Source: Limnohabitans sp. TEGF004
Lineage (GTDB): Bacteria > Pseudomonadota > Gammaproteobacteria > Burkholderiales > Burkholderiaceae_C
Assembly (NCBI RefSeq): GCF_027924965.1
Contig: NZ_AP027056.1
Location: forward strand, 2,108,001 to 2,172,000
DNA length: 64,000 bases
Direction: 5' to 3'
Positions 10,021-15,250 of the stretch are shown here, piece after piece. The translations under genes were made by a program, and so were the position numbers. Under the pieces are notes generated by a model. It did not search any database. It saw nothing but the letters and a program-made list of their open reading frames with translations, and was not told the origin of the DNA. Positions within the stretch are counted from its first letter, which is position 1. Each line of letters starts with the position of its first letter.

Positions 10021-10681
10021 TTAAGTTAGCACCTCGGTGTTGGCCTTCTCAGCGAGTTGCCGATAGTAGTTGGCCTCAGCCTCGGCAGGTGGAATATACC
10101 CAATCGGCTCCAGCAACCTGTGGTGGTTGAACCAAGACACCCATTCAAGAGTTGCCAATTCCACAGACTCCTTCGTTTTCCAAGGCGCACGGCGGTGAAT
10201 CAACTCGGTCTTGTACAGCCCGTTACGAACGCCACGTACAGCCAACCCTGCCAAGTTGAGACGTAGGTGAAGTCCGACACCCACAACTGATTGGGCCGTT
10301 CGGCCTTGAACTGCCTGTTAACCCTGTCCAGCGGGCACATGGCCGCCTTGTCTGAGAACGTGGTGGCACCACCTTGCCACGACGTACGCCGTGCAGGCCC
10401 AGGTGCTTCATCAAACGCTCCACCGTGCAACGGGCTACGGGTATGCCCTCTCGATTCATTTGATGCCAGACCTTGTCCGCGCCATAGACCTGCAAGTTGG
10501 CGTTCCAAACGCGTTGAATGTGAGGGATCAATTCATCATCGCGCTTGGCTCTTGCACAGCGAAGTTGTGGGTTGCGTTGCAGGGCGGCGTGTCGCCTGTA
10601 GCAAGACGGGGCAATTTGCAAAACCTTGCAAATTGGCTCGACCCCGAAGGTATTGCGATGCTGGTCGACGAAACGCTTCAA
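10021..10681 (-). pseudogene. Broken IS3-family transposase orfB
   Basis: The DDE integrase half of an IS3 transposase, starting at 10681 with an ATGA overlap on orfA. It opens normally ([25 protein letters not shown]), then loses frame near 10378, where the sequence after GRRGKVV looks one base short. The correct sequence resumes in another frame (RVNRQFKAERPNQLWVSDFTYVSTWQGWLYVAFV) and keeps the first catalytic Asp. At about 10220 it jumps straight to (N)GLYKTELIHRRAPWK and the normal C-terminus. About 85 residues, including the second Asp and the Glu of the DDE triad, are deleted. The protein cannot be active. Confidence 0.88.
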
Positions 10682-11001
10682 GACTTGAGTCGGCGGTCGA
10701 GCTCCGCCTGGGCGAAAAACGCGCTGGCCACCTTCAAGATCTCATTGGCCCGACGCAGCTCTTTGTTCTCGCGTTCAAGTTCCTTGATTCGGTCATGCTC
10801 AGCGCTGGTGGTGCCGCCGCGCACGCCGCTGTCGACTTCGTGCTTACGAACCCATTCGTGAAGGGTTTGAGGGGCGCAGCCGATCTTGAGTGCAATTGAT
10901 TCAATGGCCGCCCATGTGGACGGATATTCGCCACGGTGGTCTTGCAACATGCGAACAGCGCGTTCGCGTACTTCGGGGGAAAAACGATTTGATTTGCTCA
11001 T
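10678..11001 (-). CDS. IS3-family transposase OrfA (helix-turn-helix)
   Basis: A 107-residue OrfA that appears intact. It has the usual helix-turn-helix ([30 protein letters not shown] split by a turn), then a leucine-zipper-like coiled coil ([18 protein letters not shown]) and the ending [16 protein letters not shown]. In active elements OrfA binds the ends and is fused to OrfB by programmed frameshifting. Here its partner is broken, so it may at most act as a DNA-binding remnant. Confidence 0.88.
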
Positions 11002-13856: not shown

Positions 13857-13941
13857 GCCCGGGTGGTGAAATTGGTAGACGCAGGGGACTCAAAATCCCC
13901 CGCCGCGAGGCGTGCCGGTTCGATTCCGGCCCCGGGCACCA
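13857..13941 (+). tRNA. tRNA-Leu (anticodon CAA)
   Basis: An 85-base tRNA with acceptor stem GCCCGGG/CCCGGGC, a D-arm containing GGTAGAC, anticodon stem GGGGA/TCCCC enclosing the loop CTCAAAA (anticodon CAA, reading UUG), a long variable arm (CCGCCGCGAGGCG region) as expected of a class II tRNA, T-loop GTTCGATTC and an encoded 3' CCA (13939-13941). It marks the right edge of the AT-richer accessory stretch. Confidence 0.97.
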
Positions 13942-13987: not shown

Positions 13988-15250
13988 ATGAATGACGACG
14001 ACTTTTCCAACATAGTCAGAAGTGGTGCTGAGCATCATGTCTCTGTTTCCGAGCACACCGGAAACGCCAAAACCCCAAAAAACATCGTGGTTTCTCATGA
14101 AGAAGAGACCGAAGCTCGCAAGCGCGCATTTGAAGAAAAAGCGCTTGCCGCTTTAGATGCTGAAAAAGCCCTTGCGGCAGCACTGGCAGAACACACAGAG
14201 CATATTGCAACTGACGACGGCGCTGCAGACGCCAACATCCAAAAAGTTGCAGCCAGTCAAGGCGCTGCTAACGTACAAAACGTCACCACCGACAAAATTC
14301 AAGACAACATTCAATCGGTTGGCAACGTCAAAGGAATCGCACCTAATGTGCAAAGTGTCTCATCAGACGCGATCGCGGCCAACCTGCAAAGCGTTGGCGG
14401 CAGCAATATCGCGGCCAACAAGCAAAACATCGCGGGTGAGAAAGCAATTGAGGCGAATCGCCAAGGCATCCCCACAGATGCCATTACCTCCAATGTGCAG
14501 AACATCCCCGTAGGGAACATCGTCGCCAACGTACAAGACATCGGCAACGACCCAGCCGCGGCTGCTAATTTGCAAGCGCTTGCCAAAGACGATGTGGCAG
14601 TCAATCGCCAATTGCTAGGCCAAGATGGCAATGCAAAAAACCAACAGGGCATCGCCACTGATGCCAACGGCGCCAATGAACAAAAATTGGCCAACTTAGG
14701 TGGGCAAAACAACCAGCAAACGCTCAATCAAGATAGCGTCGCCAACAACCAACAAGCCATCCCACAAGGCCCAGGCATAGCACCCAACAATCAGCCCATC
14801 GGTACGGATGCGGCTTCGCTCAATCGGCAAGCCGCACCTCAAGATGGACCAGCGGGTATCAATCGTCAAGGCGTGGACAACAGCAAGATTGAGTCGCACT
14901 TTGAGCAACTCCCACCAGGTGAGGTTGAGCGTAAAAAAGTAGACTTTCCCACCGGCATGCAAAGCGGCAGCACTTCTAGTGCACCTGCAAGCTCAGCCAC
15001 ATCAAGCGCCACCAAGCCCAGCACCCCTGCGGTGGCACCACATGCGCCATTGACGGCAGCGGAACAACAGCGACTGGCCAAACTCAAACGCGAGCAGATG
15101 AACGACGCGTTTCATGGCCGTCTTGCAGGCATCAAACACAACGTAGAGGCCCTCAACGGGCGTTTGACGGATTTCGAAGAAAAAGTGCACAAAGAGGACG
15201 GCAAACTTCAAAAAGGCAATCCGGAAGATTTCGACATCGATCTCGACTAA
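13988..15250 (+). CDS. Protein of eighteen 12/13-residue N-x-Q repeats, function unknown
   Basis: A 420-residue acidic protein without a signal peptide or membrane segment. Residues 1-80 are hydrophilic, with an Ala/Glu/Lys helix. Residues 83-303 are eighteen tandem repeats, each starting N-x-Q, with Asn at 83, 95, 107, 120, 132, 144, 157, 169, 181, 194, 206, 218, 230, 242, 254, 267, 279 and 292. Position 5 is usually I, V or L, and positions 10-12 are often small or hydrophobic. A Ser/Ala/Pro/Thr linker (about 325-355) leads to a charged C-terminal helix (360-410) ending DFDIDLD. Such spacing with an Asn/Gln ladder suggests a beta-solenoid or amyloid-like rod, but a disordered repeat is possible. 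It lies alone between tRNA-Leu and a terminator. Confidence 0.8.
   Translation: MNDDDFSNIVRSGAEHHVSVSEHTGNAKTPKNIVVSHEEETEARKRAFEEKALAALDAEKALAAALAEHTEHIATDDGAADANIQKVAASQGAANVQNVTTDKIQDNIQSVGNVKGIAPNVQSVSSDAIAANLQSVGGSNIAANKQNIAGEKAIEANRQGIPTDAITSNVQNIPVGNIVANVQDIGNDPAAAANLQALAKDDVAVNRQLLGQDGNAKNQQGIATDANGANEQKLANLGGQNNQQTLNQDSVANNQQAIPQGPGIAPNNQPIGTDAASLNRQAAPQDGPAGINRQGVDNSKIESHFEQLPPGEVERKKVDFPTGMQSGSTSSAPASSATSSATKPSTPAVAPHAPLTAAEQQRLAKLKREQMNDAFHGRLAGIKHNVEALNGRLTDFEEKVHKEDGKLQKGNPEDFDIDLD
14234..14896 (+). repeat. Coding tandem repeats, 36/39-base period
   Basis: Eighteen degenerate units of 36 or 39 bases encode the N-x-Q repeats. The spacings in residues between successive Asn are 12,12,13 three times, then 12,12,12,12,12,13,12,13. 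DNA identity between units is low while the protein pattern is kept, so the array is old and under selection at protein level rather than a recent slippage product. Confidence 0.85.

Follow-up and report, generated by a model that had tools for sequence, protein, structure and literature searches.

A 12/13-residue repeat protein of Limnohabitans, a candidate envelope adaptor, related to a flagellar-cluster protein and to a TerB membrane protein

The window, a stretch of 64,000 nucleotides of Limnohabitans DNA, carries an ORF at 13988..15250 (+) that runs from ATG to TAA and encodes a 420-aa protein, which we term rod-repeat protein A. By its sequence A has a three-part anatomy: an N-terminal motif (N-motif), a rod of 12/13-residue repeats that varies in length among relatives, and a C-terminal coil. 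Alignment and profile matches show that the rod is common to A and a TerB membrane protein, B, whose coil was recruited by the same iterated profile, and that the coil is related, and the N-motif weakly related, to those of a gene, X, located after flhB. Our best explanation, held tentatively and at somewhat less than even confidence, is that A represents, in Limnohabitans, an undescribed family of adaptor rods derived from a flagellar-operon gene, and that it may act as a cytosolic, beta-solenoid-like envelope adaptor. The features of the locus are as follows.

13857..13941 (+), tRNA-Leu(CAA), detected by ARAGORN, 46 bases 5' of the A gene
13988..15250 (+), rod-repeat protein A, whole ORF, 420 aa, 86 homologues
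13988..14134 (+), N-terminal conserved motif, residues 1-49, consensus MNDDDFSxIVRSGxxHxVSVSExTGNAKTPKNxV
14135..14233 (+), Ala/Glu-rich stretch, residues 50-82, probably helical judging from its sequence
14234..14899 (+), rod, residues 83-304, 18 units of N-x-Q-x-Phi-x(4-5)-Phi-x-x (Phi, hydrophobic)
14900..15091 (+), linker with a Ser/Ala/Thr/Pro-rich stretch, residues 305-368, read from composition
15092..15190 (+), C-terminal coil EQMNDAFHGRLAGIKHNVEALNGRLTDFEEKVH, residues 369-401, with conserved columns and profile relatives in X and TerB protein B

In the N-motif, V20, S21, E22, G25, N26, A27, K28, P30, N32 and V34 were invariant (67 sequences). The coil displayed a hydrophobic heptad pattern (F375, L379, I382, V386, L389, L393 and F396) and invariant F375, R378, I382, K383, V386, N390 and L393, and a charge-hydropathy plot placed residues 306-368 marginally in the disordered range. 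A contains no Cys, and hydropathy analysis detected no stretch fit for a signal or membrane helix (maximum 19-residue Kyte-Doolittle mean of 0.69, at residue 52), which supports the intracellular location proposed by an earlier, sequence-only reading; nothing was found in favor of the unconventional export it had offered instead. A tRNA-Leu also lies directly 5' of the A gene in L003-L009, L098-L100, L102, L104, L105 and L115, and it is absent directly upstream at the A loci L101, L103 and L093-L097. About 3 kb upstream of A are two overlapping ORFs (10223-11001, minus strand) that resemble an IS3-type transposase pair. A mobile element was considered for the A gene itself and is unlikely, since the gene keeps the same flanking neighbors in many relatives.

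A contains 20 N-x-Q matches, 18 of them in register and two (residues 241 and 253) each one residue ahead of a register unit. The 18 register Asn residues run from residue 83 to 292 with spacings of 12,12,13,12,12,13,12,12,13,12,12,12,12,12,13,12,13, so that the 12/13-residue periodicity over ~210 residues that had been noticed earlier was borne out, and the 12,12,13 rhythm holds for the first nine spacings and is looser later. As had also been described, position 5 of the unit is hydrophobic (Val, Ile or Leu in 17 of 18 units, Ala in one), and the units have diverged at the DNA level, their 24-base cores being 51% identical on average and 79% at most. In 20,000 shuffles of residues 80-305, the N-x-Q count averaged 4.1 and peaked at 12 (20 observed), and the number of N-x-Q followed by another 12 or 13 residues on averaged 0.13 and peaked at 3 (18 observed). 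The shuffles never came close. The reading of the units as real repeats under selection is supported. A 37-residue super-repeat was also considered, and the lag-3 mean identity (0.213 versus 0.187-0.203 at other lags) was too small to claim one.

A protein search returned 86 homologues of A of 253-558 residues, among which copy number was the main variable, with 7 to 27 N-x-Q each except in P0086, which has 1. This metagenomic sequence, a real fusion or an assembly artefact, joins the N-terminus of A to unrelated sequence that is presumably outer-membrane receptor-like. All homologues with organism names were from Limnohabitans (P0074 in the search with A; P0113 of INBF002, P0130 of L. curvus and P0187 in that with B), and locus L006 is from Limnohabitans sp. 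Jir61. A matches were obtained in 7 of 399 family genomes, five of them Limnohabitans (the window's own included) and two weak matches in other genera (4.5e-4 and 5.0e-4), which, with their sequences unread, were taken as composition and not counted; the same-genus genome G381 gave no A match in this search. Within the genus, the A alignment matched 75 of 84 genomes (38 of the 40 good ones), a count that includes matches to B.

Searches of Pfam, NCBIfam, PHROGs, PADLOC and PDB yielded nothing usable for A, in agreement with the earlier reading, which recognized no family. The only Pfam match was DUF6586 at 0.026, below cut-off, and PF05099 (TerB) was not matched. An acyl-CoA dehydrogenase model of NCBIfam scored 20.7 bits (cut-off, 450) over residues 32-105, which belong largely to the Ala-rich stretch, and this match was taken as composition. 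PDB gave no match with the single A sequence, and the best profile match was to a sortase at E 2.2. PADLOC anti-phage defense models matched weakly (0.03 for A and 0.036 for B), and neither protein was assigned to them. Among the matches listed, nothing in the literature concerned rod-repeat protein A; in the literature searched, no paper joined SPOR domain, flagellar genes and FlhB, and none joined TerB domain, DjlA and membrane.

Across the 86 homologues and the window protein, 762 spacings were of 12 residues and 338 of 13, for a mean unit length of about 12.3 residues in the repeat family. Altogether 1197 of 1307 spacings fell on the 12/13 lattice or its multiples, and a lost unit left a gap of mostly 24-25 or 36-38 residues. 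Adjacent 13-residue spacings made up 1.9% versus 8.3% expected, in homologues that are not independent. The 12-residue units (642 distinct; N1, x, Q3, x, Phi5) had a hydrophobic residue at position 5 in 96%, Pro or Gly at position 6 in 47%, Asp or Glu at position 8 in 62%, and a second hydrophobic residue at position 10 in 53%; the 13-residue units (301 distinct) had the first in 85% and the second, at position 11, in 49%. Asn and Gln are fixed by the unit definition, and their conservation among the counted units carries no weight. In 12- and 13-residue units alike, the second hydrophobic residue lies at -3 relative to the following Asn, indicating that the extra residue of the 13-residue units lies in a loop. 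Pro was common at the last position of 13-residue units and occurred also at positions 6 and 12/13, and for this reason an alpha-helical reading of the unit was set aside.

Spacing that is locked in register, with the extra residue confined to one loop, favors a folded rod. From the period, the residues with an inward pattern and the length-tolerant loop, we infer a beta-solenoid in which each 12-13-residue unit would form one turn of a narrow two-strand coil. N1, Q3 and Phi5 would point inward from one short strand, forming Asn and Gln ladders over a hydrophobic stripe, Phi10 would point inward from the second strand, and the loop between the strands would absorb the thirteenth residue. The earlier proposal of a rod with helical caps at both ends is supported at its C-terminal side by the heptad pattern, and a folded rod is favored.

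An unlikely though serious alternative is that A is a multivalent disordered chain, whose N-x-Q-x-Phi segments would act as independent short linear motifs that each engage a single partner molecule, so that copy number would set valency. The wide range of copy numbers (P0086 left out), the frequent Pro or Gly at position 6, the Pro at the end of 13-residue units and the low hydrophobic content, which puts the chain barely on the folded side (meanH of 0.440 versus a boundary of 0.423), are all consistent with it. A flexible chain, however, needs no 12/13 lattice, yet the great majority of spacings keep to one, lost units leave gaps of whole multiples for the most part, and the second hydrophobic residue keeps its distance from the next Asn whichever the unit length. 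These observations argue against the disordered chain.

The rod repeat was found in a second protein of the same genome. B is 669 aa long in the window's genome and contains two TerB stretches (PF05099, 3.2e-10), a rod with 8 N-x-Q units (6 in register), a coil and, close to its C-terminal end, a hydrophobic helix (19-residue mean of 2.06 at residue 608). The A alignment matches this B at 5.1e-13 and the B of G080 at 1.6e-16. A shares with B the rod repeat and, by the iterated profile, the coil; A itself has no TerB match and is not a member of the TerB family, whereas B is. The genes of A and B are not adjacent. B matches were found in 53 of 84 genus genomes (28 of the 40 good ones), some through one TerB domain or the rod only. 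In other genera, 14 genomes among the 299 family genomes searched matched B only at residues 30-155, the first TerB part. In L065 and L066, of one lineage, B continues for more than 100 residues past the hydrophobic helix, possibly as a periplasmic sensing domain.

Of 14 B loci that were read with wide flanks, 13 have a response regulator gene and a kinase (or kinase-sized) gene next to B, L112 being the locus without such a pair. B and the two-component pair share a strand in L048 and L106-L111, a layout kept in the different surroundings of L110 and L111, and are divergent in L083, L087, L089, L092, L113 and L114. Pfam confirmed the kinase type in three loci: both genes of the pair were run for L048, and the kinase for L083 and L113, where it carries a 7TMR-DISM domain.

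Further relatives of A were found in the flagellar region, in a cassette with the order flhB, a SPOR-type membrane protein, X and a membrane coiled-coil protein; the SPOR match is weak (0.0019, below cut-off). FlhB (PF01312) was matched in 80 of 84 genus genomes, four of them only weakly (G417, G440, G443 and G463; three through a short C-terminal homologue). Gene X was read in 23 of the 84 genomes, which were hand-picked, many for an A match near flhB. The full cassette was present in 22 of the 23, the exception being G438, whose SPOR-like gene is cut by a contig end. X is long and carries the N-motif in 12 genomes, with 209-769 aa in the 11 recognized by regular expression, with that of G432 recognized by eye in a three-frame translation. 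The other 11 genomes have a short X of 128-180 aa without motif or repeats, among them the window's genome (G000), whose 135-aa X keeps only the coil. In seven deeper Limnohabitans genomes X is an A-like protein of 675-769 aa with the same anatomy as A: an N-motif (IIRSxxHxVTIEKGSKNAK), N-x-Q and N-x-A repeats, and a C-terminal coil. The Gln is thus not fixed in deeper relatives, and four long X have 0-3 N-x-Q/A in register, suggesting that N-x-Q is one version of a more variable repeat.

Outside the genus, a search with the SPOR-like protein matched 10 of 150 family genomes, two of them Limnohabitans and three others with matches better than 1e-19. Other-genus matches were read in five genomes. 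In G092, G087 and G124, of three genera, the SPOR-like gene follows flhB and is followed by a gene at the X position and then a membrane coiled coil. G037 has a weak SPOR-like N-terminal match (1.3e-7) just after flhB and a coiled-coil match further on, and in G130 the cassette was not seen at the locus read. One other-genus X (L154, 6066-6995) has the deep N-motif followed by a different ~13-residue repeat, of DHREx type; a change of ladder residues may thus leave the period intact. In the flagellar region of the window's genome, a 1280-aa ORF (L125, 13847-17689) has a beginning that resembles a flagellar hook protein, for which it seems uncommonly long; two further rod/hook-like ORFs come after it.

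The relationship of the coils was examined with a profile built from 69 distinct seed pieces of A and deep A and run iteratively against 1127 sequences, comprising locus ORFs and 120 B homologues. It recruited 171 sequences below E 0.01, all of them A, X or B: 118 of these B homologues and 53 ORFs from loci that in part overlap. Reversed versions of the 1127 sequences scored 0.23 at best, and the best other window frame 0.54. In round 1, the profile with deep A matched the X of G453 (1.1e-5) and G474 (1.3e-4), and in round 4 it matched that of G000 at 5.8e-10. After iteration, 8 of the 11 short X were below 0.01, indicating that A has the coil that characterizes the X family; those of G260, G421 and G407 stayed above (0.037-0.041), as did the B of L083, L087, L089, L092 and L112-L114. 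With an A-only profile and one step, the X of G453 (3.8e-4) and G474 (0.0075) were matched, and neither the G000 X (1.1) nor B (best, 0.18) reached significance; an unrelated coiled-coil ORF scored 0.16, and coiled coils resemble each other. The N-motifs of A and X appear weakly related: a deep N-motif profile matched the X of one of the three other genera with a similar gene order at 1.4e-11 and then, next, window-type A at 0.08-1.4 (best reversed sequence, 15), and a profile seeded from A matched the X of G462 at 0.0018 (best reversed sequence, 0.12). The sequence-only reading of A as a new-looking protein is supported as regards the absence of a characterized family above cut-off; it missed that A has kin in the TerB membrane protein and the flagellar-operon protein.

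A separate long A was present in all 11 short-X genomes, in G407 as a listed 297-aa frame whose sequence was unread. In the 12 long-X genomes none was found among the matches listed, which do not include all of those weaker than 3.9e-7; outside the flagellar contig these were only G462:C44, which is B, and G425:C42 (L158). The latter resembles B in its rod units and in a hydrophobic helix close to the C-terminus, and its frame is open to the contig start; no TerB was seen in it, its coil match is only E 1, and G425 has no B match. This complementarity, 11 of 11 versus 0 of 12, was observed in related genomes and does not represent independent events. The window's A lies outside the cassette position after flhB, behind tRNA-Leu, and in the same genome the 135-aa X occupies that slot. 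The A gene is best read as a relocated copy of the flagellar-operon X and a long member of the X family.

The link with flagella is not exclusive. G461 (96% complete) contains an intact 499-aa A-like gene (L093), yet FlhA, FlhB and the membrane coiled-coil protein all went unmatched there; the A of G461, kept without detected flagellar genes, suggests that the role of A is not purely flagellar. G381 (99% complete) has an FlhA fragment and a weak A match only (5.5e-7), with no FlhB or membrane coiled coil found, and G424 has a weaker FlhB match, no membrane coiled coil and no match to A or B. According to an excerpt of one study, four Limnohabitans type strains are non-motile (PMC3031073), although FlhB was matched in nearly all genomes of the genus; an excerpt of a second contained nothing on motility (PMC3591437).

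Kinship with a flagellar-cluster gene and with a membrane protein resembling a sensor suggests that A, probably a stiff rod inside the cell, is a connecting scaffold at the envelope, and the shared modules and gene context point to an adaptor role. The coil may oligomerize or dock on a membrane partner, which could be the membrane coiled-coil protein, the SPOR protein or B, and the N-motif may bind another partner. A would then be a spacer or scaffold on the cytosolic side of the envelope that served the flagellar export base first; the rod and coil that it shares with B probably tie it, in Limnohabitans, to the TerB/two-component sensor as well. The polar scaffolds HubP and FimV likewise have a long repeat region and, like A, a plausible anchoring near the flagellar base, but A has no LysM or TPR match and no membrane segment. 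A rather improbable extension of the adaptor reading is a bacterial rod relay, in which free A rods, having the Asn/Gln rungs of the TerB/two-component membrane protein and a related coil, would stack on that protein and link it to a flagellum-base or envelope complex of SPOR and coiled-coil membrane proteins.

Decidedly improbable is a self-templating solenoid resembling functional amyloids, in which B would nucleate and free A would polymerize through Asn/Gln rungs, relaying a signal as in the HET-s/NWD2 precedent. The same rung motif does occur in membrane sensor-like B and soluble A of one genome, and A has the Asn/Gln ladders. However, the two genes lie apart, the copy numbers of A are far above those of signaling amyloids, which have few rungs, Gln is replaced by Ala in deep members, and Pfam and NCBIfam recognized no effector domain in A. 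The major curli subunit CsgA is built of curlin repeats, units of about 22 residues with Asn/Gln ladders. A resembles it and other Asn/Gln-ladder beta-solenoids in the regular alternation of Asn and Gln with hydrophobic residues, but its unit is 12/13 residues, its gene context is different, and it is not a curli subunit, having no Pfam curlin match and, by hydropathy, no secretion signal.

Very improbable, too, is that A is structural filler that binds nothing in particular, a protein confined to the genus and evolving fast, with repeats maintained by slippage. Its restricted distribution and changing copy number would fit, as would the substitutions at Asn/Gln codons in diverged pairs of genes. 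With units chosen in one sequence of each pair, dN at these codons was 0.049, 0.232 and 0.444 in three diverged pairs, versus 0.916, 0.76 and 0.526 at other repeat positions; in the third pair the difference is nearly gone, perhaps because of misaligned units. In three close pairs of A-type genes it was 0.012, 0 and 0 versus 0.146, 0.071 and 0.074. The near absence of replacements at these codons in the close pairs also speaks for the folded rod, and the changes in the diverged pairs speak against it. Against filler, dN/dS of the whole proteins was 0.22-0.27 in the close pairs and about 0.01 at the Asn/Gln codons of the L098/L099 pair, the N-motif and coil are conserved, and A is present in every short-X genome read. 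It is scarcely credible that A is an ice-binding beta-helix with a flat N-x-Q face instead of T-x-T, for although its 12/13-residue coil with one residue-x-residue ladder per turn recalls the beetle antifreeze protein, which has Cys-bridged 12-residue coils with T-x-T, A has no Cys, no T-x-T, no signal-like stretch or other sign of export and no usable PDB match, and its coil is related to that of a flagellar-operon protein. A is not a beetle-type antifreeze protein.

Limnohabitans is prominent in freshwater plankton, according to an excerpt of PMC3591437. A represents a repeat family that has no model or solved relative in the libraries searched, and if its unit is a beta-solenoid turn, it would be a short natural rung with a built-in length-tolerant loop. 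Candidate partners of A are the unnamed cassette after flhB and B, the TerB membrane protein with its neighboring two-component system. A flagellar-operon gene that has apparently moved to a tRNA-Leu site, in a pattern complementary to a shortened original, is a good case for studying the splitting of such adaptors. The rod relay, if true, would be a new way of coupling stress sensing to the envelope machinery.
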